From the NCBI RefSeq assembly GCF_009720525.1, contig NZ_CP043930.1, positions 1,240,001-1,304,000 on the forward strand: a stretch of DNA of 64,000 nt, written 5' to 3'. The DNA comes from Gimesia benthica (GTDB taxonomy: Bacteria; Planctomycetota; Planctomycetia; Planctomycetales; Planctomycetaceae). The notes beneath the pieces are model-generated. The model was not told the origin of the DNA. It saw only the letters and a list, made by a program, of their open reading frames with translations, and ran no database searches. Below, piece after piece: positions 21,068-40,219 of this stretch. Position numbers and translations under genes: made by a program. Every line of letters starts with the position of its first letter. Position 1 is the stretch's first letter.

Positions 21068-21596
21068 ACATATTGCAAGCGAAGCAGTGAGCCGGGGGGT
21101 TATTTCAAGACCTGAAGCACTTGAATGTTATTCAGCCCTGATGATAGTTCCAGGAGACCCCCAAAGAATTAGACGAATCAGATGGATAAAGCAGGCGGTG
21201 ATCTCTGATTCATTTTACGATGATTTCTTCATGCATCAGCCTCCATGCGCGGTACCTCTCGATCAATCGATGCCATCCCATCGCGTAAAATCCGTATCAG
21301 CGAGAGAAAATTCTCTTGGAGAAATCGGACAGTACAATCCTCCTGACAACGCACACAGTTTCAGATGGTCCACAAACATATCCATCTATACTGATGAGAA
21401 ATCTGTAAAATAAATTGACTTCCATTAGTAAATAATATTGGGCTGCCTACAACTATTATTGAGTGTGGTTTTATAGAAATGGAATCACCCGAGAGGGTTC
21501 AAATGCAAATCACCTACAGTATCCCAGTTGGTGATTGAAAAAGTTTTTGCGTTTCATTTATCCAAATTGACTGAACTCATTTTGAAACTCTTAGTC
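21068..21596. other. Gene-free stretch between LacI and haem oxygenase genes
   Basis: About 530 bp upstream of the haem oxygenase. A 116-codon open frame (21063-21413, plus) begins inside the putative operator and shows no family features, so I do not call it. No clear sigma-70 promoter could be chosen. Confidence 0.35.
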
Positions 21597-22202
21597 ATGC
21601 AAGATTTCGCAACGGAGATCCGGGAAGCGGTTCATGAATTGCACCAGCAGATCGAATCTACTTATCTCGCATTTCGAATGATGCATGGAATCATTTCGAA
21701 GCCAGAATATTCCTGGATTCTAGCACAGCTATACTACTTGCATCGTTTCCTGGAGCCGACCTGGCAAGCAGACAGTACCCTGGCTGGACTCTTCGACTTA
21801 AATAAATATTCTCGACTGCAAACCATTCAGGCTGATTTGAACCTGCTTGTGAATGGCGACATGCCTGCCATTGATCCCACAACCCAAAAGCTACTCCAGC
21901 AAACCTCAGCCATGTATCAGGAAAATAAATACTCGCTGATTGGTGTATTGTATGTCCTGGAAGGATCGAGGCTGGGCTCAGTGTATTTAACCGAGCCTCT
22001 GATGAATGCTTTATCGCTTCAGGACACAACAGGGGCCGGTTTTTTTCTCTGTACCCCAGAGCCATGGTACAAAGACTGGTACCGCTTCAAAGAGAGCATC
22101 AATCAGATTGATGATCTGCCCCAGCAGTTTGAAGGCATTAAGTATGCCGCAGTCAAAACATTTGAAGGAATGATTGAGCTGTACCAGACAAAACCAGCTT
22201 GA
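21597..22202 (+). CDS. Biliverdin-producing haem oxygenase, copy 1
   Basis: 201 residues from ATG 21597. I chose this over the upstream in-frame 21528 because the paralogue at 28185 begins at the equivalent residue (MQDFATEI versus MRDFSSEL). Haem oxygenases open haem to biliverdin IX, CO and iron, using a reductant. Visible family features: an N-terminal helix with LHQQIES, whose His is the expected haem ligand, and the distal helix motif YVLEGSRLGS. Length fits the bacterial BphO/HemO type. It lies 170 bp before a receiver gene and 3.7 kb upstream of the bacteriophytochrome, so a role in making its biliverdin chromophore is likely. The second copy flanks the phytochrome on the other side. 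Confidence 0.82.
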   Translation: MQDFATEIREAVHELHQQIESTYLAFRMMHGIISKPEYSWILAQLYYLHRFLEPTWQADSTLAGLFDLNKYSRLQTIQADLNLLVNGDMPAIDPTTQKLLQQTSAMYQENKYSLIGVLYVLEGSRLGSVYLTEPLMNALSLQDTTGAGFFLCTPEPWYKDWYRFKESINQIDDLPQQFEGIKYAAVKTFEGMIELYQTKPA

Positions 22203-22370
22203 AACGATCTATATCATCCTACTCTGCTGTTAAAAAAATGATTCTATCTCGAGATTCACCCAGTCAGTTCATGCCACCCAGCGTTCCGCGGTATGACATG
22301 TTTTGTGCACCACTTTCAGCCTGTGAAAAGAAAGTCTCGCCAGCTGGAATTTATTGCTGATCGCTGACCT

Positions 22371-22769
22371 ATGAATTTTTCAAGAAAAAACAAAGTTTAC
22401 ATCATCGATGACGACAAAGATGTAGCTCAGTCTACTGTCATTCTGCTTCAGGCTCATGGCCTGCAAACCGAGTTATTTCACTCAGTGGAGGACTTTCTCA
22501 CAGAAACTGATCCCACGATATCAGGCTGTGTGGTCTCTGATTATGCGCTGGAAGGGAACTGGAATGGCATTGACCTGCTGCGGAAGATACAGGATCTGGG
22601 ATACAGGATCCCATTCATTCTCGCATCTGGCTCTTTGAACCACAGTTCCCGGTTAACTGCGGAAAAGTCCGGTGCCTTTGCGATTCTTGAAAAACCTTAC
22701 CCTTCAGATATTTTATGTGAAACGATCTATGCCGCACTGAAACATAATGATGGCCGATTCCCGAATTGA
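22371..22769 (+). CDS. Stand-alone receiver-domain response regulator
   Basis: 132 residues, a single receiver domain without an output domain. The acidic pocket is IIDDD (D13-D15), the phosphorylation site is D57 in VVSDYAL, and the switch lysine is in ILEKPY. The sequence GNWNGIDLLRKIQDLG resembles FixJ-type receivers. Such proteins can relay phosphate to an HPt protein, act as a phosphate sink or regulate by binding a partner. Its position between haem oxygenase and the hybrid phytochrome suggests it accepts phosphate from one of the hybrid kinases in this island, by inference. A decayed copy lies at 23912-24175. Confidence 0.88.
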   Translation: MNFSRKNKVYIIDDDKDVAQSTVILLQAHGLQTELFHSVEDFLTETDPTISGCVVSDYALEGNWNGIDLLRKIQDLGYRIPFILASGSLNHSSRLTAEKSGAFAILEKPYPSDILCETIYAALKHNDGRFPN

Positions 22770-22791
22770 TTATCGCTTGCGGGTTTTATGC

Positions 22792-22808
22792 ATTCACAAT
22801 TTGTGAAT
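22792..22808. promoter_or_regulatory. Perfect 17-bp palindrome downstream of the receiver gene
   Basis: ATTCACAA-T-TTGTGAAT. The central base leaves no loop, so it looks more like a protein-binding site than a terminator. It lies 20 bp after the receiver stop codon. The decayed receiver copy keeps a degraded version at about 24141-24158. Confidence 0.4.
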
Positions 22809-23091
22809 CAGACTTAACCTGAATCGAATATTTAGAGGCTGTCTTCTTAAGCTGCGATCAGATTATCAGCTTACGATTCGCCTTTAAAAACACTCGCAGA
22901 TGCAGTTCATTTTCACATATGCAGACTTGCATGTCATGTTGCCGCGACTTGCACTTTGAGAGAATGAAACCAAGCCACTCCCGGAGTCCACAGAGACCGA
23001 TACCCAAACACTGGCAAATCTCTACATGGATAAAGCCTACATGAGTCGGTAACATTTTTTGTCACAAAATCAATTACCCGAAGGGCAATCT

Positions 23092-23586
23092 ATGGATTTC
23101 TTAGAAATGGCTTTGGTCGCAGCGACTTTGCTGTGCTCTTTAGTCGCTGGTTTTCTCTTCGCATTTGCCGTAGTCGTTATGCCGGGCATCAGCAGTCTGA
23201 GCGACCAGCATTTCATATCTACCTTTAGAGTCATGGATCGTGTGATTCAGAACAACCAACCACTTTTTATGCTGGTCTGGATAGGTTCGATAATCACGCT
23301 GATTACGTTTACGGTTTTAGGCATTTCAGAATTACCCCGGGTTGAGCAGGCAATCCTGGCAATTGCCACGTCACTGTATCTTCTGGCTGTGCAATTACCA
23401 ACTCTGACAATGAATATTCCACTGAACAATAAACTGCAATCACTCAGTGTAGAGAAGATGGGAGTAGATGAATTCCGCGCTGCTCGCGATGAATTTGAAA
23501 CGCGATGGAAGTATTGGAATGCGATCCGGACAGTTTCCGCTATCGTGACATCGTTGATGCTTATAATCCTGTTATTTCTGCAGTGA
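23092..23586 (+). CDS. DUF1772 integral membrane protein
   Basis: 164 residues from ATG 23092, preceded by AAGGG; an earlier in-frame start at 23059 adds 11 residues. Four hydrophobic segments are visible (about residues 5-30, 55-78, 85-105, 140-162). The loop containing MNIPLNNKLQ and the later RWKYWNAIRT are the signature of DUF1772, the family that includes anthrone-oxygenase-like proteins. Most bacterial members have no known activity. It is on the same strand as the receiver gene, separated by about 320 bp, so co-transcription is uncertain. Confidence 0.8.
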   Translation: MDFLEMALVAATLLCSLVAGFLFAFAVVVMPGISSLSDQHFISTFRVMDRVIQNNQPLFMLVWIGSIITLITFTVLGISELPRVEQAILAIATSLYLLAVQLPTLTMNIPLNNKLQSLSVEKMGVDEFRAARDEFETRWKYWNAIRTVSAIVTSLMLIILLFLQ

Positions 23587-23911
23587 TTACAAATCCGTAT
23601 GTCTTAACTGATCCAGCCACATTTCTCTGAATTTTAGTGACCACTTATAGTGAGTTCAGGCTGATTTTCTCAGTCCACACCCGGCATGACTGCCTAAAGT
23701 GAATTAGATGCCCTGGTGAAAAGCCCGATAGACTCCTCTCAAATATGGTTAAGAGCCTCATTAAACTATCCATATGGTGTTAGAGTACCGCTATCCGAGT
23801 GGGCCGTAGAAAGTCCCGCCTAAAATAACGCGTAATCACACATACCCCTGATCCATGGATTCTCAGCATTTATTTCTGTATAGCAGGTGGAAGCAACCTG
23901 TTTGACCGTAA
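23587..23911. other. Gene-free stretch after the DUF1772 gene
   Basis: About 325 bp in which I see no coding frame, repeat or promoter of note. It ends where similarity to the receiver gene begins. Confidence 0.35.
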
Positions 23912-24175
23912 GCGAAGTCATTCTGCTGAGAAGGTACAGAATCTGTGTTTCAGAGTTACAGAATTTCTATCATTATCGTCGCCAGTTCTCTTAACCAGAG
24001 TTCCCAGTTGACTCCAGAAAATCAGATGCCATTGCCATTCTTGATAAACGTTATAATTCATAAATTTTGTGTCAAAAGATCTGCGTTCAACCTGAACAAT
24101 CGTCGGTTCCCAGAAGTGATTCTCGCACGTGTAGAAAGTGTATTCACATTTTTGAATCAGACTCATCCAGCCTCA
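23912..24175 (+). pseudogene. Decayed copy of the receiver gene (3' part)
   Basis: The stretch aligns by eye with the last third of the receiver gene at 22371-22769. CTGCTG..GAAGGTACAGAATCTG corresponds to its CTGCTGCGGAAGATACAGGATCTG; the translated YRISIIIVASSLNQSSQLTPEN matches YRIPFILASGSLNHSSRLTAEK; and CGTCGGTTCCCAGAAG matches its GGCCGATTCCCGAAT end. The similarity continues past the stop into the downstream palindrome region (ATTCACA...TGAATCAGACT). The frame is interrupted and the 5' two thirds are absent. It is a duplicated and decayed segment. Confidence 0.75.
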
Positions 24176-24192
24176 AAGCGGAATTACTAAAT

Positions 24193-24205
24193 TCACACAG
24201 TGTGA
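24193..24205. promoter_or_regulatory. 13-bp palindrome TCACACAGTGTGA
   Basis: Perfect inverted repeat around a single A. It lies 400 bp upstream of the gene at 24604 and close to the decayed receiver copy. It may be a remnant regulatory site; nothing else supports a function. Confidence 0.25.
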
Positions 24206-24603
24206 GACCAGTTGATCAACTCATAAATCGCTTGGAAAAAAATTCAGACGCTGCTGAATTTCACCGCTGCAGAGCACACCGGCCACCTGTTCAACATCCG
24301 CACAAACCAGCTCTCACCATACGAACTAAACGAGGCACCGGATAAACCGGCCATACTCAAATGCCAACCGCCGTGATTCAGAACCGGAGATCTCTTGAAA
24401 CCAAGGGTACGGGAGTACCGTAAACCAAACAGAGAAGCAGACAACTTAATCTGAAGTGGTGCTTGCTAAGTTGAATGACTTGCCCTAGTATCTCTGCAGC
24501 GCTTCCTATGCTAGACTCAGGAAATAATCATGAATTTATAATCATAATTTCTCCGCCAGCGATTGATCGTCGTTCAAGCTGAATACGAACAAGCACTGCG
24601 TTC
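24206..24603. other. Gene-free stretch upstream of the unknown gene at 24604
   Basis: About 400 bp without a convincing frame. It presumably carries the promoter of the unknown gene and phytochrome, but no clear -35/-10 pair with standard spacing was found. Confidence 0.3.
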
Positions 24604-25269
24604 ATGAATTATCCTACCCCAGTTTACCGCCAAACTATTAATCGGGGTTTAAAGATGCGCTCTTGCTACATTCATTCTGCCACCTGGCACCGACTAAAGA
24701 AACAGGGAACGATTTCCTATGATGGAAATTGCATCATGGGCACCGCAGTTCCTCCGGATGATTGTGTGCTTAAGGATCAACTTCAGCCCCTTTCGAATAA
24801 AAACACACTACTATATTCTTTCAAACTCACGGGTGATCTGCAGCATGCATCCTGCTCCGTGTTGCGGATAGCAAATTCTCTACAGATCAAAGGACTTAAA
24901 AAGTCTGATCCCCCTGCTCCATTGCTGAATCTCCATGTTCAATCCGGACACCTCTGTCTGGCAATTCGGGAATTCAAGTATCCAGCAAGATGGTGTCGAG
25001 AGACACAGTCCTACTCTTTAAAGCCAGCTTATCAACAGGGACATGAGCTGTTTCCTGTCAAATCTGATCACTGGGTTGACCTTGAGATCGAGATGAAGTG
25101 GAGTCACTCAAACCTCGGCTTCATCAGGTGTAATGATTTGATCTTTCCAAATCTACATACCAAATTCAATCACTACCCCTGCGAACTTAGTCTGGGAATC
25201 ATGTCCGGTTCCATTCCTCTTCATAATACGATCAGAGAATATGATATCTGCCACGAATTAGTTTCATAA
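24604..25269 (+). CDS. Unknown protein with possible heparin-lyase-type jelly-roll fold
   Basis: 221 residues (an alternative start, ATG 24655, gives 204). I do not recognise the protein at sequence level. The C-terminal pattern WVDLEIEMKWSHSNLGFIR with a following strand LSLGIMSG and a closing EYDICHELV resembles the W-D..vkwS...G....NG / yfkiGlYr / yyDe order of the polysaccharide-lyase family that includes heparin lyase I (concanavalin-like sandwich). No signal peptide is visible, odd for a lyase. It lies 38 bp upstream of the phytochrome gene on the same strand and is probably co-transcribed with it. Confidence 0.55.
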   Translation: MNYPTPVYRQTINRGLKMRSCYIHSATWHRLKKQGTISYDGNCIMGTAVPPDDCVLKDQLQPLSNKNTLLYSFKLTGDLQHASCSVLRIANSLQIKGLKKSDPPAPLLNLHVQSGHLCLAIREFKYPARWCRETQSYSLKPAYQQGHELFPVKSDHWVDLEIEMKWSHSNLGFIRCNDLIFPNLHTKFNHYPCELSLGIMSGSIPLHNTIREYDICHELVS

Positions 25270-25307
25270 AATCATCCAGGCATTAAACCTAACCGGGAGA
25301 TTGAGAC

Positions 25308-28037
25308 ATGGACGAATCGATCAATATGATTCCTGCTGCAGACCTCCCCAGTGAAGCCAGCGAAAACTGTGACCATATTGCATATCAATATTCTGGAGTC
25401 ATCCAACCTCACGGGGTGTTGGTCATCGTCAATCCAGATGACTTTCGGATCTTACAAATCAGTGAGAATGCATCACTGTTTTTCGGCATGCAAACTGAGG
25501 GACTCCTGGGGCAACGCTTGTTTAATGGGCGGATTTTGAGTTCTACGCCCGAGGTCATCAATGAGTTTAATCAATGCATCTCTAATTCTCCTCGACTGAT
25601 CAGCGGCCTGACAACTCCCGGAGGTCTGGCGTTATTGGGTAGATTGACCCGCACTGATGGCCGTTTTCATCTCGAACTTGAGTTTGCCAGCAGCCCGTAT
25701 GACGTCGAGCGCTGTTCTCCAATCGAAATGATTTCGGAGATCACCGAGGTCCTGTCTCGAACCGAATCTATAAAAGATATCGCGGAATCATTTCCCCAGG
25801 TGTTTCGAAAATTCATTGGCTATGATCGCTGCATGATTTACCGTTTCGATCCCGAGTTTAATGGAGAAGTCATTGGAGAATCTCGTTCAGAAAATGCACA
25901 GGATACATTTCTGGGGTTGCGTTTTCCGATGTCCGATATTCCGAAAAGTGCCCGCAAGATGTTCGCGGACTCCCCTGTCAGGGTTACTGTTGACCAGACC
26001 GTAGAATGTGTGCCGATCACACCACGGCGCGACCCGGAAACGCAACAGGATGTCGATCTAACAGCGGTTAGAATTCGTGGAGCTGCCGGATCCTGTCAGA
26101 CATATTACAACAACATGGGGGTCCGCTCGACTCTTGTGATGCCAATCTTTTATGAGCATGAACTCTGGGGCCTTGTATCCTGTCACCATGGTCAGCCAAG
26201 AAGGCCCTCTCCCGAGCTGGATTCTGCCCTGAAAGTGGTAGTCAAACTGATTTCGAATGCTCTGGAACACGCAGCAGCGGCCGAACACAGGTTGGCAGAA
26301 AGGAAAGCACGGTCGATCAATGAATTACTGGCGAAGATAGACCCTTTCGACTCTAATTGTCTGGTCCAGATTCAACAGCAGGTCGAAAACCTGAAGGAAA
26401 TGATTGACTGCACTGGTTTTTTACTGCGAATTGACGAACAGGATTACGCACACGGTGAAATCCCGGATGATGAAGAACTGCAGACATTTATTGAGTCTCT
26501 GTTGCCAATGGCAGGCGATGAAGCCTTTGCCATCAATAACATTCCGGAACACTTTCCTGCTTTGGCGGAATTAAGAGATGTCGCCGCCGGAGGGTTACTG
26601 GTTCCCCTCAGAAGTAATCCGGATGAATTTGCAGTCTGGTTCCGGGCTGAGCAACCTCTTACCGTCAACTGGGCAGGAGATCCCCAATCAGGTCTTAAAT
26701 GGAATCAGCAGGGACGCCCCGAGCTAACTCCTCGCAACAGCTTTGAACTCTGGAAATCCAAAACCGCAAACACCTGTTATCCCTGGAGCACCGCGGAAAT
26801 TGCTTTTGCCAACAGTGTTTCCACCCAGATTGGTCTGATTTCTTTGAGTTGGCATGCCTTGAGAGCAGATCGTGCCAAGAGCGAATTCCTGACGAATATG
26901 AGTCATGAAATCCGGACCCCGATGACCTCGATCCTGGGCTATCTGGATATTCTGGAGTCAGAGGATTTTGAGCCCGAGGATCCCATGCGGCTGGAAGCGT
27001 TTTCTGTAATCAAGCGCAGCGGAAATCATCTGATGCAGCTTATCAATGATATTCTCGACCTTTCAAGCATCGAGTCCGGGCGAATCAGTATAAATAAAAC
27101 AGACGTTGAACTGGGATCCCTGGTTGAAGAGGCATTGACCATGGTCCGGGAACAGGCTGAACACAAACAACTGGAATTGTCACTTAAGTATGAATCAATG
27201 CCTCCTCATAAAGTTCTGACAGATCCAACGAGGGTCAAACAGATTCTTTTGAATCTGTTGGAAAATGCAATCAAATTCACGGAACGAGGTTGCGTTTCCC
27301 TCAAACTCTTTCATACGAGTGATGACCAAAATACAAAACAGGTTTATCTGCAAATCATCGATTCAGGCATTGGAATGGATCAGGATCAACTGGAAATTGT
27401 CAGAACATTCAAGACGTTTAATCAGCTGGATAACTCTCTGACACGAAAGTATGGAGGAACCGGCCTGGGCTTGCGAATCTGTCATGGCCTGGCTCAAAAA
27501 CTGGGAGGTAAAATTGAAGTTGAATCTCAAAAAGAAATGGGAAGCATCTTCACCCTCTCCCTCCCTGCTGAAGACTCAGAAAAAACGATTTTAAAAAAGT
27601 CTCGCTTTAATGAAAGTGCAAACCAGGCAGATACAGGGGACGTGGCTTCTACCAGAGAAGCATTAATCGGAACACGTATTCTTCTCGCTGAGGATGACCC
27701 GATCAATCAAAAAGTCATTGACAACTTTCTGACAACCTCTGGAGCAGAGGTCACCCTGGTCGGTAACGGAAAACTGGCAGTGGAAGCTGCTCTTAAGGCT
27801 GCACCAGACTTTTTTGACCTGATTCTAATGGACATGCAGATGCCGGTACTTGATGGATATTCGGCGACCAGTCAACTCAGAAACCAGGGATATGAACATC
27901 CAGTGATTGCCTTGACGGCACATGCCATGGAGGGTAGTCGGGAGAAATGTATCGCCTCTGGTTGTGATGATTTCATTACAAAGCCGATTAACAGAAAATC
28001 GCTCATTAGCATTTGCATAAAATGGATCGAGGACTAG
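25308..28037 (+). CDS. Hybrid bacteriophytochrome: PAS-GAF-PHY-HisKA-HATPase-REC
   Basis: 909 residues, start preceded by GGGAG. PAS (about 20-130) has the chromophore-binding Cys at C21, 11 residues before IQPHG exactly as in classical bacteriophytochromes. GAF (about 140-320) has DRCMIYRF, the SDIP motif with D210, and the Arg of the VRIRGAAG segment. The near-invariant chromophore-pocket His is replaced by Cys: C263 in GSCQTYYNNMGV. PHY (about 335-510) has the tongue motif PRNSFELW and VWFRAEQPLTVNW. HisKA has H533 in NMSHEIRTPM, then a HATPase (DSGIGM, GGTGLGL), and a C-terminal receiver with D842 in LMDMQMP. It should bind biliverdin and pass light signals through phosphorelay. No HPt or DNA-binding partner is adjacent. 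Confidence 0.93.
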   Translation: MDESINMIPAADLPSEASENCDHIAYQYSGVIQPHGVLVIVNPDDFRILQISENASLFFGMQTEGLLGQRLFNGRILSSTPEVINEFNQCISNSPRLISGLTTPGGLALLGRLTRTDGRFHLELEFASSPYDVERCSPIEMISEITEVLSRTESIKDIAESFPQVFRKFIGYDRCMIYRFDPEFNGEVIGESRSENAQDTFLGLRFPMSDIPKSARKMFADSPVRVTVDQTVECVPITPRRDPETQQDVDLTAVRIRGAAGSCQTYYNNMGVRSTLVMPIFYEHELWGLVSCHHGQPRRPSPELDSALKVVVKLISNALEHAAAAEHRLAERKARSINELLAKIDPFDSNCLVQIQQQVENLKEMIDCTGFLLRIDEQDYAHGEIPDDEELQTFIESLLPMAGDEAFAINNIPEHFPALAELRDVAAGGLLVPLRSNPDEFAVWFRAEQPLTVNWAGDPQSGLKWNQQGRPELTPRNSFELWKSKTANTCYPWSTAEIAFANSVSTQIGLISLSWHALRADRAKSEFLTNMSHEIRTPMTSILGYLDILESEDFEPEDPMRLEAFSVIKRSGNHLMQLINDILDLSSIESGRISINKTDVELGSLVEEALTMVREQAEHKQLELSLKYESMPPHKVLTDPTRVKQILLNLLENAIKFTERGCVSLKLFHTSDDQNTKQVYLQIIDSGIGMDQDQLEIVRTFKTFNQLDNSLTRKYGGTGLGLRICHGLAQKLGGKIEVESQKEMGSIFTLSLPAEDSEKTILKKSRFNESANQADTGDVASTREALIGTRILLAEDDPINQKVIDNFLTTSGAEVTLVGNGKLAVEAALKAAPDFFDLILMDMQMPVLDGYSATSQLRNQGYEHPVIALTAHAMEGSREKCIASGCDDFITKPINRKSLISICIKWIED

Positions 28038-28184
28038 AAAGAATGTAGCCAGCTACGAATTTGTCTGGTGAGAAGATTCAATATGCTTGCCGCTATTGTA
28101 GATGTGTTGGTCTTCTATCAAGATTTGTGTTTGCTTTTTAAGTAAACTGTCTCATCTTCATAGCGATCAGCCAGGAATATATCG

Positions 28185-28793
28185 GTGAGAGATTTTTCTT
28201 CAGAGCTCCGAGTGTCGATCCAGAAATATCACGACGAAATCGAGTCAAGCTATCTAGCTAAACGAATCATCAGGACGAAAATTACCCGTAGTGAATACTG
28301 CTGGCTGCTTTCACAACTCTACTACCTGCACTGTGCTCTCGAAAGCAGTTGGCAGAACAATCTGGGCTTTTCATCCCTCTACGACACATCGATTCACTCC
28401 CGTATACCGGCGCTCAAAGCAGATTTAGAATTACTGAATGAGGGCAACTATTATGCGTTGCATGATTCCACTGTCAGATTGCTTGCAAAATTTGAAGAAT
28501 GGAATGTCACCAACCATTACTCTCTGATCGGTGCTCTCTATGTGATTGAAGGATCAAGGCTGGGAGGTGTTTTGTTAAAAGATCTGCTTTACGATGCCTT
28601 GAAACTCACAAATAAGGAAGGAGCAGCTTATTTCCTGGGTACTTCTGAGTTCTGGCACAAGTCATGGCGCGAGTTCAAACGGCGTATCAGTGAATCTCCT
28701 GAAATGGAATCGCATCAAGAATTGATTTCGAATGCCTCGATCGAAACCTTTCAGGGCCTGACCGACCTCTATAATACAAGACCATTTATTTAG
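28185..28793 (+). CDS. Biliverdin-producing haem oxygenase, copy 2
   Basis: 202 residues from GTG 28185 with AGGAA upstream. It aligns end to end with the copy at 21597 but is clearly diverged. Shared motifs: YHDEIESSYLA (haem-ligand His), SQLYYLH, NHYSLIGALYVIEGSRLGG and the end ETFQGLTDLYNTRP. It keeps the GSRLGG glycine motif of haem oxygenases better than copy 1, which has GSRLGS. It starts 147 bp after the phytochrome stop and is likely part of the same transcription unit, supplying its biliverdin. Confidence 0.85.
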   Translation: MRDFSSELRVSIQKYHDEIESSYLAKRIIRTKITRSEYCWLLSQLYYLHCALESSWQNNLGFSSLYDTSIHSRIPALKADLELLNEGNYYALHDSTVRLLAKFEEWNVTNHYSLIGALYVIEGSRLGGVLLKDLLYDALKLTNKEGAAYFLGTSEFWHKSWREFKRRISESPEMESHQELISNASIETFQGLTDLYNTRPFI

Positions 28794-29504: not shown

Positions 29505-32500
29505 ATGCCCGATAATGAATTCACTGCAAAATTAATAGGAACGGTACGCACAGCGGCAACCCCCTTAAAGTCATCCTATGTCCAGTCGTTCGTCATCAGC
29601 ATTTTTCTCTTCGGAACACTGTTTTACTTCAACTGGAGTGTCCACTCCAAAGACATGCAACGGACTACCTTTCTGGGTCGGCAGATCAATATTGCCGGTC
29701 GGCAGAGGATGCTCAGTCAACGTTTACCCAAAAATCTTCTGTTACTGACTCAGGGCCAAAACGAAACAGAAATCTATCCCGCACTGGACGCGGACCAGCG
29801 GCTCCTGGCACGCATGCACCAGGAACTTTTAGCAGCCACAAAAGAGTTCGAAAAGACTGCAAGCGAGCAGCAACTCAGCCAGCTTTTGGACAAAATCACT
29901 CCTCTGGTTACGGGAATTTCGCATGATGTCCTGCTGGTACTTTCCGGGGAGCGAACGGCATCCGAAGTATTGCCTGCAGTCTTAGCGAATGAAAATCAAC
30001 TTATCCCCCTCATCGACCAGTACAATCAGCAGTTGGCAAACCAGAAATCCATTCTGCAGAGTGAACAGTATCGTAACCAGTTTCTGCTGGAATCCATCAT
30101 TACGGGTATCATCAGTCTCGCGATTTTTGCCGGCCTGTCGTATACCCTCTCTCGGTTTTCCCGCCAAAAATCAATTTTCCAGGCTGAAAAACAGAGCCTG
30201 ACTGATCAGGCTGATCAAATATCCAAACAGAAAAAGATGCTGGCAACAGCAATCTCAGCTTCCCGAAATGAAACCTGGTACTGGCACGAGACGTCGGGGG
30301 ATTTCTGGTGCTCTGACGCCTTCTGGAAGATTTTTGGGTATCAGCAGGAGACTGATTATCCAGAATCAGATTTGGCATCCTTCTTATCCCACATCGATCC
30401 GCAGGCGTCTGGTTTCCTGGAGCCCTTGATCTATCAGACAGATGATGCTGACAGCAGCTTTGACTTTGAAATCGAGGCCAGCAATCGACGGGGAGAACAG
30501 CGCTGGGTACGGATTCGTGGGGAACGCAACTGCAATATTAATGAATCCGGCTTCACGCTTATTGGAACGGTTGAGGATATCCATGAATATATGCTGGCCA
30601 AGCTGGAACTGGTTCGAAATGAGAACCTGCTGACAAGTGTGGGGACTATGGCCAAGGTCGGAGGCTGGTCGTATGAATTGGCGAGCAAGTACCTGTACTG
30701 GTCTGAGCAGACATTTCTGATCCATGAAGTCGAAGCAGATTATAAACCGACCCTTGAGCGTGCCTTCACCTTTTATGCTCCCGAAGCTCAGCCTGTAATC
30801 CAGACCGCCTTTGAAAATGCCATCGAAACCGGAGAAGGCTGGGATCTGGAATTGCCCCTGATCACCGCCCGTGGTCGAAAAATCTGGGTCCGCGCGCGAG
30901 GAGAAATACAATACGAAAACAACAAACCGGTTCGTATGATGGGAGCTTTACAGGATATCACTGAAGAAAAAACTTACCAGGATGAGAACTTAAGACTGCA
31001 GCATCGCGAACATGAATCTCGTGCCCGATTCGAGGGAGTCATCAATGCTGCAACGGAATTCTCAATTATCGCTGCAGACCCAAATGGAATTATCACGCTG
31101 TTCAGTCCTGGAGCGGAACGGATTTTAGGCTACTCAGCAGAAGAGATGGTCGGGCTACGGACTCCGGAATGTTTTCATCTGAAAGAGGAAGTCGAAAAAA
31201 GAGGACAGGAGTTAACCGCAGCCCTCGGAAGTCCCGTCGAAAACTTTGATGTCTTTATTACACCCGCAAAACTTGGCACATACGATAAACGTGAATGGAC
31301 CTATGTCTGTAAAGATGGATCGCACCGAATCGTTGACCTGACAGTTACTGCAATTCGCGACCAACAGGATCATATTCTGGGTTACCTTGGAATCGCTTTT
31401 GATGTAACTGAAAGAAAAAACATTGAATCCCAGCTCGAACGCCTGGCGACTGCTGTCAGCAAATCAACAAACGGTATGGTGATTACTGATGCAGAGGGGA
31501 AAACCGAATGGGTCAATGATGGTTTCAGTAGAATCAGTGGTTATCAGATTGAAGATCTGAGAGGCAAAAAACCTGGTTCCGTTTTGCAGGGCGAGAAAAG
31601 CGATCCTGCCACGATCGACTATATGCGGAACAAAATTCAAGCTGGTGAAAGTTTTGAAGCAGAACTGATTAATTACCACAAATCGGGGACTGAGTACTGG
31701 ATCAGCATCAAAGCGGACCCCATCTTTGACCAGGAAGGTGAATTCACAGGATTCATTGCGATAGAAAATGATATCACCAATCAGAAACATGCTGAACTGG
31801 AACTTATTGAAAGTCGTGAAAGGGTCCACCAGTTACTGAATGCACTTCCCACAGCCGCTTACACCTGTGATCAGGAGGGCCTGATCACCTATTATAATCA
31901 GGCAGCCATCGATCTCTGGGGACAGGAACCAGAGTTGCTCAGCCCAGTCAATAAATTTTGTGGCTCCTTCCGGTTGTTTGATAAAGAAGGTAACCAGGTA
32001 GATCATGCAGAGTGCTGGGTGGCCATTGCAATTCAAGAGTCAAAAGTGATCTACGGTGAGGAAGTTGTGATCGAGTGTCCTGATGGGACCCGTAAAAGTG
32101 TCCTGGCACACGTCAACCCTATCCTGGATAGCTCTTCGAAAATTACCGGAGCCATCAATGTTCTGGTCGATATTTCAGACCGGATTCTACTGGAAAGGTC
32201 ACTGCGTGAAACAACAGCGCGTCTGGAAATCTGCCAGCGGGTACTGGATCAGCATGCGATTGTTGCAGAAACCGATCTGAATGGTACGATTCGTGATGTC
32301 AATGATATGTTTTGTAAAGTCAGTGGATTTGATCGTGAGGAGACAATTGGTCAAACCCATAAGATAGTGAATTCTGGTTATCATTCAAAAGAATTCTGGA
32401 AGAATGTCTTCAAAATAATCGCAGAGTCAGGACTCTGGAAGGGAACGATCTGTAACAAAAATAAAAATGGTGATTATTACTGGGTAGACACTACAATCGC

Positions 32501-33806
32501 AGCCATGCTCGACGGTGAGGGTAATAATACTGGATACCTGGCAATACGAAATGACATTACCGAATTGATTGAGGCGCAGGAGGCCGCTCTGGATGCCTCA
32601 CGCAGTAAAAGTGAATTTCTGGCGAACATGAGCCATGAGATCCGTACGCCTTTGACCGCCATCCTTGGTTATGCTGATCTGCTCCATGATGATCCCGAAA
32701 TAGCCGAAGTTCCCGAGAAGCGGTCTGAGGCAATTTCTACGATCCAGGATGCAGGCAAACACCTGCTGACGATCATCAATGACATCCTGGACCTCTCCAA
32801 GATTGAAGCAGGAAAACTGGAGCTGGAAGAAACGGTAACACAGGTTTTCCAGATACTTGATCATATTGAAAGTCTTCTGAGGCCCCCTGCCAGTGAAAAA
32901 GGAGTAAAACTGCTCACGCAGATTGAAACGCCGATTCCAGACCTCATTTTGAGCGATCCGACCAGGTTAAGACAAATTCTGATGAATCTTGTCGGAAATG
33001 CGGTCAAGTTTACAGAAAAGGGGCGGATTCGAATTCTGGTTCGAAAATCAGATCTGGGTGGAAAAGAGTTTCTTCAGTTTGAAATAGAAGATTCCGGCCC
33101 GGGCATGTCCCAGCAGCAGGCCGAGAAAATGTTTAAGGCTTTTTCCCAGGCAGATACCTCTGTCACAAGGCAGCATGGTGGCACCGGTTTAGGGTTGGTG
33201 ATCTCGCGTAAACTCGCTCGTATGATGGACGGAGAGGTTTCACTGGCATGGACCCAGAAAGGAAAAGGAACCTGCTTTCAATTCGTTCTACCCATTAAAA
33301 CCCTCTCGCAAACCAGGTATCGTGTCAGTCGACTGGAAAAAGATGCAGATCATATAAAAAAGGTCGGGAAATCCAACACCTCAGAGGATCAATTGTTAGC
33401 TGGTACCCGAATTCTCCTGGCGGAGGATGGTCCTGACAATCAGAAATTGATTTCATATATTTTGATCAAGGCCGGTGCACTTGTCGAAATCGCGGAGAAC
33501 GGTGCCATAGCGTATCAAAAATATCAGGAAGCCGAAGCGAAAAGTGAGCCTTTCGACATCCTGCTGACCGATATGCAGATGCCGGAAATGGATGGTTATT
33601 CCCTGACGCGAAAGCTGAGAGGTGAGAACGCAATACTTCCGATCATCGCCTTGACGGCACATGCCATGGCAGAAGATCGCCAGAAATGCCTGGATGTGGG
33701 TTGTGATGACTACCTGAGTAAGCCAGTGAATCGAAAAATCCTGATTCAGACAGTCGTGCAATGGAAAACGAACTCGTCTGAAAAGTCCAAAGATCCAGTC
33801 AGATAG
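29505..33806 (+). CDS. Membrane hybrid histidine kinase with PilJ-type sensor and several PAS domains
   Basis: 1433 residues. One membrane segment lies near residues 28-46 and a second near 195-216. Between them is a periplasmic domain with the type IV pili chemotaxis N-terminal (PilJ/NarX-like) motif GRQINIAGRQRMLSQRL. After it come about six PAS/PAC units (about 235-1015), with PAC ends such as TLIGTVEDIHEY, GAINVLVDISDR and GYLAIRNDITEL. HisKA has H1044 in NMSHEIRTPL, followed by a HATPase (DSGPGM, GGTGLGL) and a receiver with D1356 in LTDMQMPEMDGY. It resembles the phytochrome kinase in its HisKA-HATPase-REC part. The ligand is unknown; the PilJ-type domain resembles nitrate/nitrite and surface sensors. 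No output regulator is encoded nearby. Confidence 0.9.
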   Translation: MPDNEFTAKLIGTVRTAATPLKSSYVQSFVISIFLFGTLFYFNWSVHSKDMQRTTFLGRQINIAGRQRMLSQRLPKNLLLLTQGQNETEIYPALDADQRLLARMHQELLAATKEFEKTASEQQLSQLLDKITPLVTGISHDVLLVLSGERTASEVLPAVLANENQLIPLIDQYNQQLANQKSILQSEQYRNQFLLESIITGIISLAIFAGLSYTLSRFSRQKSIFQAEKQSLTDQADQISKQKKMLATAISASRNETWYWHETSGDFWCSDAFWKIFGYQQETDYPESDLASFLSHIDPQASGFLEPLIYQTDDADSSFDFEIEASNRRGEQRWVRIRGERNCNINESGFTLIGTVEDIHEYMLAKLELVRNENLLTSVGTMAKVGGWSYELASKYLYWSEQTFLIHEVEADYKPTLERAFTFYAPEAQPVIQTAFENAIETGEGWDLELPLITARGRKIWVRARGEIQYENNKPVRMMGALQDITEEKTYQDENLRLQHREHESRARFEGVINAATEFSIIAADPNGIITLFSPGAERILGYSAEEMVGLRTPECFHLKEEVEKRGQELTAALGSPVENFDVFITPAKLGTYDKREWTYVCKDGSHRIVDLTVTAIRDQQDHILGYLGIAFDVTERKNIESQLERLATAVSKSTNGMVITDAEGKTEWVNDGFSRISGYQIEDLRGKKPGSVLQGEKSDPATIDYMRNKIQAGESFEAELINYHKSGTEYWISIKADPIFDQEGEFTGFIAIENDITNQKHAELELIESRERVHQLLNALPTAAYTCDQEGLITYYNQAAIDLWGQEPELLSPVNKFCGSFRLFDKEGNQVDHAECWVAIAIQESKVIYGEEVVIECPDGTRKSVLAHVNPILDSSSKITGAINVLVDISDRILLERSLRETTARLEICQRVLDQHAIVAETDLNGTIRDVNDMFCKVSGFDREETIGQTHKIVNSGYHSKEFWKNVFKIIAESGLWKGTICNKNKNGDYYWVDTTIAAMLDGEGNNTGYLAIRNDITELIEAQEAALDASRSKSEFLANMSHEIRTPLTAILGYADLLHDDPEIAEVPEKRSEAISTIQDAGKHLLTIINDILDLSKIEAGKLELEETVTQVFQILDHIESLLRPPASEKGVKLLTQIETPIPDLILSDPTRLRQILMNLVGNAVKFTEKGRIRILVRKSDLGGKEFLQFEIEDSGPGMSQQQAEKMFKAFSQADTSVTRQHGGTGLGLVISRKLARMMDGEVSLAWTQKGKGTCFQFVLPIKTLSQTRYRVSRLEKDADHIKKVGKSNTSEDQLLAGTRILLAEDGPDNQKLISYILIKAGALVEIAENGAIAYQKYQEAEAKSEPFDILLTDMQMPEMDGYSLTRKLRGENAILPIIALTAHAMAEDRQKCLDVGCDDYLSKPVNRKILIQTVVQWKTNSSEKSKDPVR

Positions 33807-34241
33807 TATGAGCTGACTCACGGGATGAAGCCATTCTCCCCTGAAGCTACCTCGAAAAAACTGCTGAGCATGTCGCACCAGGATAAGTCCGTGTATTATG
33901 TTAGAAATTCCCCTGAACATGATCAGGTTGGGGAACGCCGGGACTGTCGCTTCTTGAAAAATACCATTCCCTACAACGGAGGCTGCCTGATGTCCCCTCA
34001 ACTGAACCCTGGCTGGTTACCTAAATAAAATCGTCCTGATTTCCACCGGGGTTAGTGGTAAGCTGTTATAAGATAAATGTCGAAAACTCACATGGATTAA
34101 GCAGTATCAACATTAACGCTCTCACAATCAGCCCGCTTTCGAATCATAATCTGGGAGCCTTATACGGAAAGAGTGTTGTCACGTTGAAATAAAGAAAAGT
34201 CACCCAACCATAAGATTTTCTGGACAATGAATTGCTTTTAG
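33807..34241. other. Gene-free stretch between convergent genes
   Basis: About 435 bp between the kinase and the oppositely oriented oxidoreductase. I see no gene, repeat or clear terminator. Confidence 0.35.
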
Positions 34242-39371: not shown

Positions 39372-39605
39372 CTGATTTTTGTAAGAATGACTTTATTATT
39401 CCTCATTCGGCAAGTCACCTCTAACATCGGAAGACTTGATATCACCTTGCAGTCTGTCTCAATATTCCAGACGTTTTTATGTGCGTTGGCGCATCTCGGT
39501 CAATCAACGCGTTCCGGCAATGGTTGAACGATGACACCACATTCTATCGACATATTCTTCCCTTGTTATTTGGTTTTTGTCAGATGCAAGACCGCTCTCA
39601 TTTCC
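39372..39605. other. Gene-free stretch after the relic
   Basis: Noncoding, no recognised element. It is the first part of a nearly 1.9-kb gene-free region reaching 41243, which also carries the two dispersed repeats and the promoter listed separately. Confidence 0.35.
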
Positions 39606-39797
39606 AGTCCGACAAGCTGTCCGATTGAGACCGTTTCAGCAGATGAGAACAATTGGCATCACAGCAACCGACTTAACCCAAGTGTCTAACTCAACGAGAC
39701 TTACCGAAATCATTTTCTGAGTAAAAATCCGCCTCAGGAGCGACACCCGCCTCCTCCACTCCAACGGCTGCTCACCAAAGTGGGCAGCCGTTTTTTT
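39606..39797 (+). repeat. Dispersed hairpin element, copy A
   Basis: One of three related copies in the window (others at 43233-43410 and 52989-53168). Common order: AGTCCGAC...TGTCCGATT, then GACTTACCGAAATCATTTTC (here at 39698), TCAGGAGCGACACCCGCC, then a hairpin. This copy's hairpin is different in sequence from copy C but in the same place. No protein is encoded. Confidence 0.7.
39763..39797 (+). terminator. Rho-independent-type terminator ending hairpin element A
   Basis: Stem AACGGCTGC/GCAGCCGTT (39763-39771, 39784-39792) with an inner CAC/GTG pair, followed by a T run to 39797. There is no complete gene directly upstream, only the relic at 38670-39371. Confidence 0.75.
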
Positions 39798-39954
39798 CCC
39801 CTTCACAACCCCCGCACTCCTCTCACAACAACCTTCCCGCTTTTTACTCTCTTTGATCAGCGTTTGCATGCAACCCCTTTCCGATTTCCAGTGCAGTTCT
39901 GTCTCTGGAACGGAACAAATTGCACTTGATCGTCACTTTCCGAATCGTATTCTT

Positions 39955-40219
39955 TTGTAATTCTGCTTCGCGCGCGAGGCGGATGATGCGTCCACTGGAA
40001 CCTGGTCCACTTGTGACTCAGAAGCACCTGAATCGCCATCGATTTTTCCCGCTTTTCACCGGAACAAAATGAACCGGCTCTCAATATCTCGTACATTTTC
40101 AAATCATTTCGGAGCAAACTCAGAGCAATTCACAGCAGACTCCCCCCACTTCACTGCACATTCGGAGCAGGTCAACACACATCATCCACTTGACTCCCCC
40201 ACGCCGATTCACAAAATAC
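39955..40219 (+). repeat. 265-bp dispersed repeat, copy 1
   Basis: Closely similar to 58706-58970 in the same orientation, beginning TTGTAATTCTGCTTCGCGCG and ending near CCCACGCCGATTCACAAAAT. A further matching tail of about 55 bp follows after unrelated spacer (40456-40508, matching 59064-59120), so the mobile or duplicated unit may be longer. Open frames through it on the minus strand are not conserved between copies, which argues against coding. Confidence 0.85.

Follow-up and report, generated by a model that had tools for sequence, protein, structure and literature searches.

The stretch between HO1 and HO2, two haem oxygenase genes of Gimesia benthica, is probably not one light-sensing unit. 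We consider it quite likely that it holds two modules side by side: a phytochrome-independent cassette (module A), in which HO1 is followed by a lone receiver and a DUF1772 membrane protein, and the hybrid bacteriophytochrome BphP with its own enzyme, HO2 (module B). Comparison with congeners shows separate fates for the two putative modules, the cassette being kept separately and BphP-HO2 deleted in the congener G146. We take the cassette to be independent and BphP-HO2 to be separate because congeners without a PHY match keep the cassette and because the deletion in G146 spared it. "The window" is the whole stretch of DNA analysed, 64,000 nucleotides (C1:1240001-1304000) from a genome of 8.03 Mb in a single contig, which we call G000; G119, G131 and G146 are congeners. 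In the preliminary description of this DNA, the stretch was read as a single phytochrome system bracketed by two haem oxygenases. Its parts list is accurate, with every named gene present at the place given (Table 1). The single system is not supported by the comparison, since the cassette is kept in three genomes without PHY, in four of four copies.

Table 1. Features of the locus, in positions of the window.
Feature	Position	Strand	Remarks
HO1, first gene of the HO-receiver-DUF1772 cassette, haem oxygenase	21597..22202	+	ATG start; 201 aa; PF01126
Lone receiver, single-domain response regulator	22371..22769	+	PF00072, 53 bits, 4e-14
DUF1772/Anthrone_oxy multi-helix membrane protein	23092..23586	+	PF08592, 50.2 bits, 3e-13
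Receiver pseudogene, decayed copy of 22575-22925	23923..24273	+	66% DNA identity, E 5e-31
7-bp microhomology TTCTTGA, left copy, inside pseudogene	24038..24044		G146 deletion junction
221-aa ORF, weak polysaccharide-lyase signal	24604..25269	+	PF14099 below cut-off
BphP, hybrid phytochrome	25308..28037	+	PAS_2-GAF-PHY-HisKA-HATPase_c-REC
HO2, haem oxygenase	28185..28793	+	GTG start; 202 aa; PF01126
Hybrid histidine kinase rich in PAS domains, at the end of the block absent from G146	29505..33806	+	3' of HO2
7-bp microhomology TTCTTGA, right copy	33951..33957		G146 deletion junction

From HO1 to HO2 every gene runs in the same direction, over a span of 7.2 kb. HO2 lies downstream of bphP across a gap of 147 bp, and HO1 lies 3.1 kb upstream of it, with the receiver, the DUF1772 gene, the pseudogene and the 221-aa ORF intervening. 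The haem oxygenase gene adjacent to bphP, as in a BphO-BphP operon, is thus HO2. The best NCBIfam match of the lone receiver is to the receiver part of FixJ, at 75.8 bits far under the cut-off of 255. For the DUF1772 protein, the ATG at 23092 is a likelier start than the TTG at 23059, as in relatives, and its AlphaFold model has a mean pLDDT of 66. This protein resembles NF050162, the chryseobasin maturation helper ChrI (E 1e-22); we reject its assignment to that named maturation factor, as the score of 80.8 bits is well under the cut-off of 275. The decayed receiver copy described earlier is real, the alignment of the two receiver regions extending over 367 columns. The 221-aa ORF is also present, and the label "lyase-like" that it had been given is weak (PF14099, 22.8 bits, where the cut-off is 29.9); it has no NCBIfam match and no homologue among the compared neighbourhood ORFs. 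A paralogue of the PAS-rich kinase, 67% identical in DNA, lies at C1:4768376, and most congeners have stretches similar to this kinase; of the kinase paralogues in G000, the one in the window seems to be the additional copy. Further along, window positions 39445-40000 contain stretches, chiefly 39869-40000, with matches at dozens of sites throughout the genus, as a dispersed repeat or a segment of a common gene. Scans found 7 promoter-like sites, where shuffled sequence gives an expectation of 14.5, and 10 terminator-like sites, where the expectation is 7.1. They found neither tandem repeats nor tRNA genes; a search with HO2 gave no match in a plasmid collection.

Both enzymes score well on PF01126 (HO1 64.3 bits, HO2 66 bits, cut-off 23), they are the only two matches to it in G000, and they share 43% identity across 200 aa without a gap. 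The proximal His and the distal Gly motif are kept in both (His16 and EGSRLGS in HO1, EGSRLGG in HO2). The possibility that one haem oxygenase is dead, which had been raised before, is rejected with the catalytic residues intact in HO1 and HO2, and from family knowledge we predict both to be catalytic haem oxygenases.

Across 17 genomes of the genus, 15 of them with a completeness of 90% or more and a contamination of 5% or less, a haem oxygenase occurs in four (G000, G119, G131 and G146, the last with two copies), and a PHY domain in G000 only, as a single match. All four other haem oxygenase copies, in genomes without PHY, have the order HO1-receiver-DUF1772 in one direction; with G000 included, the lone receiver adjoins HO1 in five of five copies, and the four other cassettes encode DUF1772 orthologues of 164 aa. 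The HO1 orthologues are 87-99% identical to HO1 of G000 and fall into two types: type a (G131 and the copy on C18 of G146) is 96-99% identical, and type b (G119 and the copy on C4 of G146) is 87% identical and sits at another chromosomal place. A search with the photosensory core of BphP (PAS-GAF-PHY) at E<=0.01 found nothing in G119 and G131 and a single partial match (E 0.009) in G146. Linkage of HO1 to a phytochrome in relatives, whose complete absence was named in the preliminary description as refuting its reading, is missing from all four further HO1 copies and their three host genomes, and the full gene set of the G000 locus occurs in none of the other 16 genomes. The cassette therefore looks phytochrome-independent. 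The side suggestion of the preliminary description, that one of the haem oxygenases serves something else, is strengthened by these phytochrome-less copies. Against our preferred explanation we count the cassette's intergenic gaps of 124-326 bp and its patchy presence (4/17).

The cassette also appears to be under constraint. Its reading frames are intact in all five copies, and pairwise dN/dS among these copies (NG86) is 0.135-0.303 for HO1 (the nine pairs that differ), 0.108-0.299 for the lone receiver (nine pairs) and 0.213-0.335 for the DUF1772 gene (ten pairs), where a number of the higher values belong to the most closely related pairs, which differ by few changes. For the phytochrome-less pair of G119 and G131, HO1 has a dN/dS of 0.149. 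The type b copies of G119 and G146 (L037, L040) are DNA-identical over HO1 and the receiver, within a tract of ~4.3 kb whose flanks are 83-100% identical, which suggests a recent exchange or conversion between species. Between G000 and G146, identity is 97.7% in the receiver, ~96% in the non-coding gap after it, 92% in the DUF1772 gene and 75.7% over 23587-24044, which holds the left part of the pseudogene. Since exchange may have touched the type a copies too, we do not use this gradient as proof of selection.

The fate of module B is recorded in G146. Contig C18 of this genome is collinear with window positions 21345-24044 and resumes at 33948, so that the gap removes the phytochrome, HO2 and the PAS kinase, and the cassette stays. 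The left edge of the gap falls inside the receiver pseudogene. The heptamer TTCTTGA is found twice in G000 (24038 and 33951) and once at the junction in G146. In G000 the pseudogene runs through the breakpoint: the left stretch matches the receiver region at 62.5 bits, and the right stretch, which follows on from it, aligns to the receiver gene and its downstream DNA at 71.1 bits, against 25.4 bits for the best of 100 mononucleotide shuffles (E-values of 4e-14 on the left and 1e-16 to the right of 24045, with the search space set by hand). We read the difference as a deletion in G146 because the pseudogene is continuous in G000 and G146 has one copy of the heptamer; insertion of an island in G000 with a target-site duplication is rejected, as it would have split the pseudogene. 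A deletion at short homology leaves such a junction, so BphP, HO2 and the PAS kinase were probably present, as a block of 9.9 kb, in the common ancestor of G000 and G146 and were then lost from G146. The match to G131 ends at 23716 and restarts at 39445, a different and longer gap than that of G146. Around the right edge of the block, ~200 bp (33820-34018) have several copies of 73-76% identity elsewhere in G000 and one in G146.

To place the two enzymes we searched 397 genomes of the class for haem oxygenases and found matches in 80. Strong hits (E<=1e-20 to A1) occur in 19 genomes outside the genus, and part of the weaker hits was inspected. Several of these 19 genomes are incomplete, down to 86%; 11 are without a PHY match and 8 have one somewhere (one of them weak). 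We analysed 20 loci from 18 of them and kept G022 apart, where the contig ends at the haem oxygenase gene. Locus contexts were labelled with local profiles, and three of the 18 globins counted had served to build the globin profile. A phycobilisome-type globin is present in 18 of the 20 loci (18/18 confirmed by Pfam PF00502), a V4R-type protein in 18 by local profiles (Pfam-confirmed in one protein, in L168), and a ferredoxin-dependent bilin reductase (FDBR) in at least 8 (8/8 confirmed by Pfam PF05996); Pfam also shows Fer2 in L167. A guess from protein sizes that these neighbours were ExbB/ExbD/TonB haem uptake proteins is rejected, Pfam having returned FDBR, V4R, Fer2 and globins. By their predicted gene content the 20 loci resemble the pre-PcyA/BBAG bilin clusters of Rockwell et al. 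2023 (PMC10151467), and HO1 and HO2 fall in a clade with the haem oxygenases of planctomycete clusters of this type. Rockwell et al. report pre-1 sequences from Planctomycetes among others, state that the haem oxygenases of these clusters are not one dedicated lineage, and propose that cyanobacterial bilin synthesis descends from kin of such clusters (PMC10151467). Those clusters hold a globin and an FDBR, whereas the genus of G000 is without either (no match to PF00502 or to PF05996 in any of the 17 genomes) and has HO1 with a receiver and a DUF1772 protein instead.

We built two haem oxygenase trees. The quick tree takes in the 119 of 135 unique sequences that are at least 175 aa long. The careful tree has 72 of these 119: 24 from the clade, 11 chosen others, and 15 planctomycete and 22 random rows of other phytochrome-linked haem oxygenases; it omits 17 rows without either kind of context, the remaining phytochrome-linked rows and the long-branch L008 and L117. 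HO2 is sister to the HO1 group with support of 100/98 in the careful tree and 99 in the quick tree, and both lie inside a clade of 27 rows, with 98/92 (bootstrap not fully settled) and 98, respectively. Other phytochrome-linked haem oxygenases, those of the same family included, fall outside this clade. HO2 as an ordinary BphO by descent is rejected, since both trees pair it with HO1. Of the 22 clade rows that come from other genera, 19 belong to loci with a globin, and three (L003, L134 and L145) have neither globin nor PHY. A PHY protein is found in the locus of three rows, all among the 19 with globins. In three of the 20 loci, those of G276, G279 and G282, a PHY-domain protein of large size is encoded no more than ~6 kb from the haem oxygenase. 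At L166, L167 and L174, in globin-bearing loci of three planctomycete genomes, PHY-domain proteins have open frames of ~1260-1280 aa, no more than ~6 kb from a clade haem oxygenase. Contact between this haem oxygenase lineage and phytochromes therefore extends beyond G000, because three other loci carry PHY proteins, and judged by gene content (3/22 rows, 8/19 genomes) the lineage is not foreign to phytochromes. The residues of the distal motif fit the trees in part. The 19 rows from globin loci have EGSR.GS, with Arg in 19/19 and Ser in 19/19, and the 68 phytochrome-linked rows have Thr in 42 and Arg in 5 at the Arg position and Gly in 60 at the Ser position. HO2, with EGSRLGG, has the Gly typical of phytochrome-linked enzymes, and HO1 has the Ser.

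BphP itself follows the bacteriophytochrome pattern of PAS-GAF-PHY, N-terminal Cys, DIP and PRxSF, with Cys21, Tyr178, Asp210-Ile211-Pro212, Arg225, Arg257, Tyr266, His293, Arg476 and Ser478 conserved. The exception is the pocket position that we take to be His260 in DrBphP/Cph1 reference numbering, which is Cys263 in BphP. The phytochrome alignment comprises 94 of 123 hits after removal of near-duplicates, and in the 93 photosensory cores other than BphP this position is His in 82, Tyr in 8 (planctomycete phytochromes L009, L025, L026, L182, L183, L184, L196 and L201) and Cys in 3 (from G161, G279 and G369). Given a shift of one residue, Cys263 could instead correspond to the chromophore Cys of Cph1, but the alignment, being free of gaps, makes the His260 position likelier. 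The photochemistry of BphP could be normal or altered. In the phytochrome tree BphP groups with phytochromes of G161 and G175, genomes that also carry a clade haem oxygenase, with SH-aLRT values of 91 and 84 and a long-branch warning, and no conclusion rests on this grouping. In the bphO-bphP operons of Deinococcus and Pseudomonas, a haem oxygenase gene lies directly beside the phytochrome gene. The G000 locus has in common with them a haem oxygenase gene beside a PAS-GAF-PHY-histidine kinase and the Cys, DIP and PRxSF motifs. It differs in that HO2 stands outside the phytochrome-linked haem oxygenase groups, BphP is a hybrid kinase with its own receiver, its pocket His is replaced by Cys, and the other haem oxygenase in the vicinity is part of a different cassette.

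Under the two-module reading, HO1 and HO2 would both come from a planctomycete haem oxygenase clade whose other members are mostly in pre-PcyA/BBAG-type clusters, with HO2 occupying the place held elsewhere by BphO. In module A, HO1 would cleave haem, the biliverdin, CO and iron released would serve something other than BphP, and the lone receiver would be phosphorylated by an unlinked kinase. In module B, HO2 would make biliverdin, which would attach to Cys21 of BphP, and the light-dependent kinase would pass phosphate to its own receiver; we infer chromophore attachment and phosphotransfer from what is known of these families. To judge from the comparison of loci, HO1 most likely does a job separate from the phytochrome. 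It may still feed BphP in G000, since synteny is silent on the diffusion of biliverdin. More specifically, the cassette might be a bilin or CO signalling module without phytochrome, its haem oxygenase stemming from the globin-cluster lineage minus reductase and globin, with the duplicate HO2 recruited for a phytochrome with a Cys pocket; this proposal we hold only tentatively, as possible rather than probable.

Three other explanations have to be weighed against the two modules. The co-directional arrangement within 7.2 kb and the short distance from bphP to HO2 would suit one integrated light-sensing locus, in which both enzymes supply BphP, perhaps differing in their biliverdin isomers or in their regulation, and the lone receiver acts as the output; lone receivers of the Rcp1/BphR type do accompany phytochromes elsewhere. 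However, the cassette genes persist in three genomes without PHY and in more than one chromosomal setting, BphP already has its own receiver, and the other 16 genomes of the genus are without the full set, and we regard such a locus as improbable. We give even less credence to the idea that the cassette is the remnant of a larger phytochrome locus, disappearing now that the phytochrome is lost. The deletion of BphP-HO2 from G146 and the receiver pseudogene, a sign of decay at this very spot, agree with it. Against it stand the intact frames in five of five copies, the low dN/dS of HO1 (that between G119 and G131 included), and the type b copies elsewhere on the chromosome, with their long identical tract in two species. 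The contrast between the 75.7% identity of 23587-24044 and the 97.7% of the receiver, which would also speak against a remnant, is unclean, given the ~96% of the adjoining non-coding gap.

Finally, HO1 could be an iron-scavenging haem oxygenase with a duty like that of HemO or HmuO, and as such it could be unlinked to uptake genes. Release of iron from haem is the common duty of such enzymes in pathogens (PMC6018153). HO1 and HO2 share a fold family with HemO/PigA and HmuO (matches to 1sk7, 1j77 and 1iw0), and the similarity of HO1 alone is low (1sk7 at E 0.007, 1j77 at E 0.06, and 1iw0 absent from its matches up to E 1). HO1 differs from these iron-release enzymes in that no haem-uptake genes are seen nearby: among 16 flanking proteins, five of them without a family match, there is no haem receptor, TonB/ExbB or haem transporter, so iron scavenging is weakly disfavoured. 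The kin of HO1 sit in bilin clusters, which also argues against it, and we find this duty unlikely, if less so than either the integrated locus or the remnant.

Searches of open-licence papers, over titles and the openings of abstracts, gave no account of this locus, in line with the earlier claim that such a locus is not described in planctomycetes. The two-module reading implies that a haem oxygenase next to a phytochrome need not share its job. It ties a planctomycete phytochrome to the haem oxygenase lineage of pre-PcyA/BBAG-type clusters. A constrained set of haem oxygenase, receiver and membrane protein, in genomes without a detectable phytochrome, globin or reductase, makes other uses of biliverdin or CO testable, and the natural Cys and Tyr residues at the pocket His position are ready-made variants for the study of phytochrome photochemistry.
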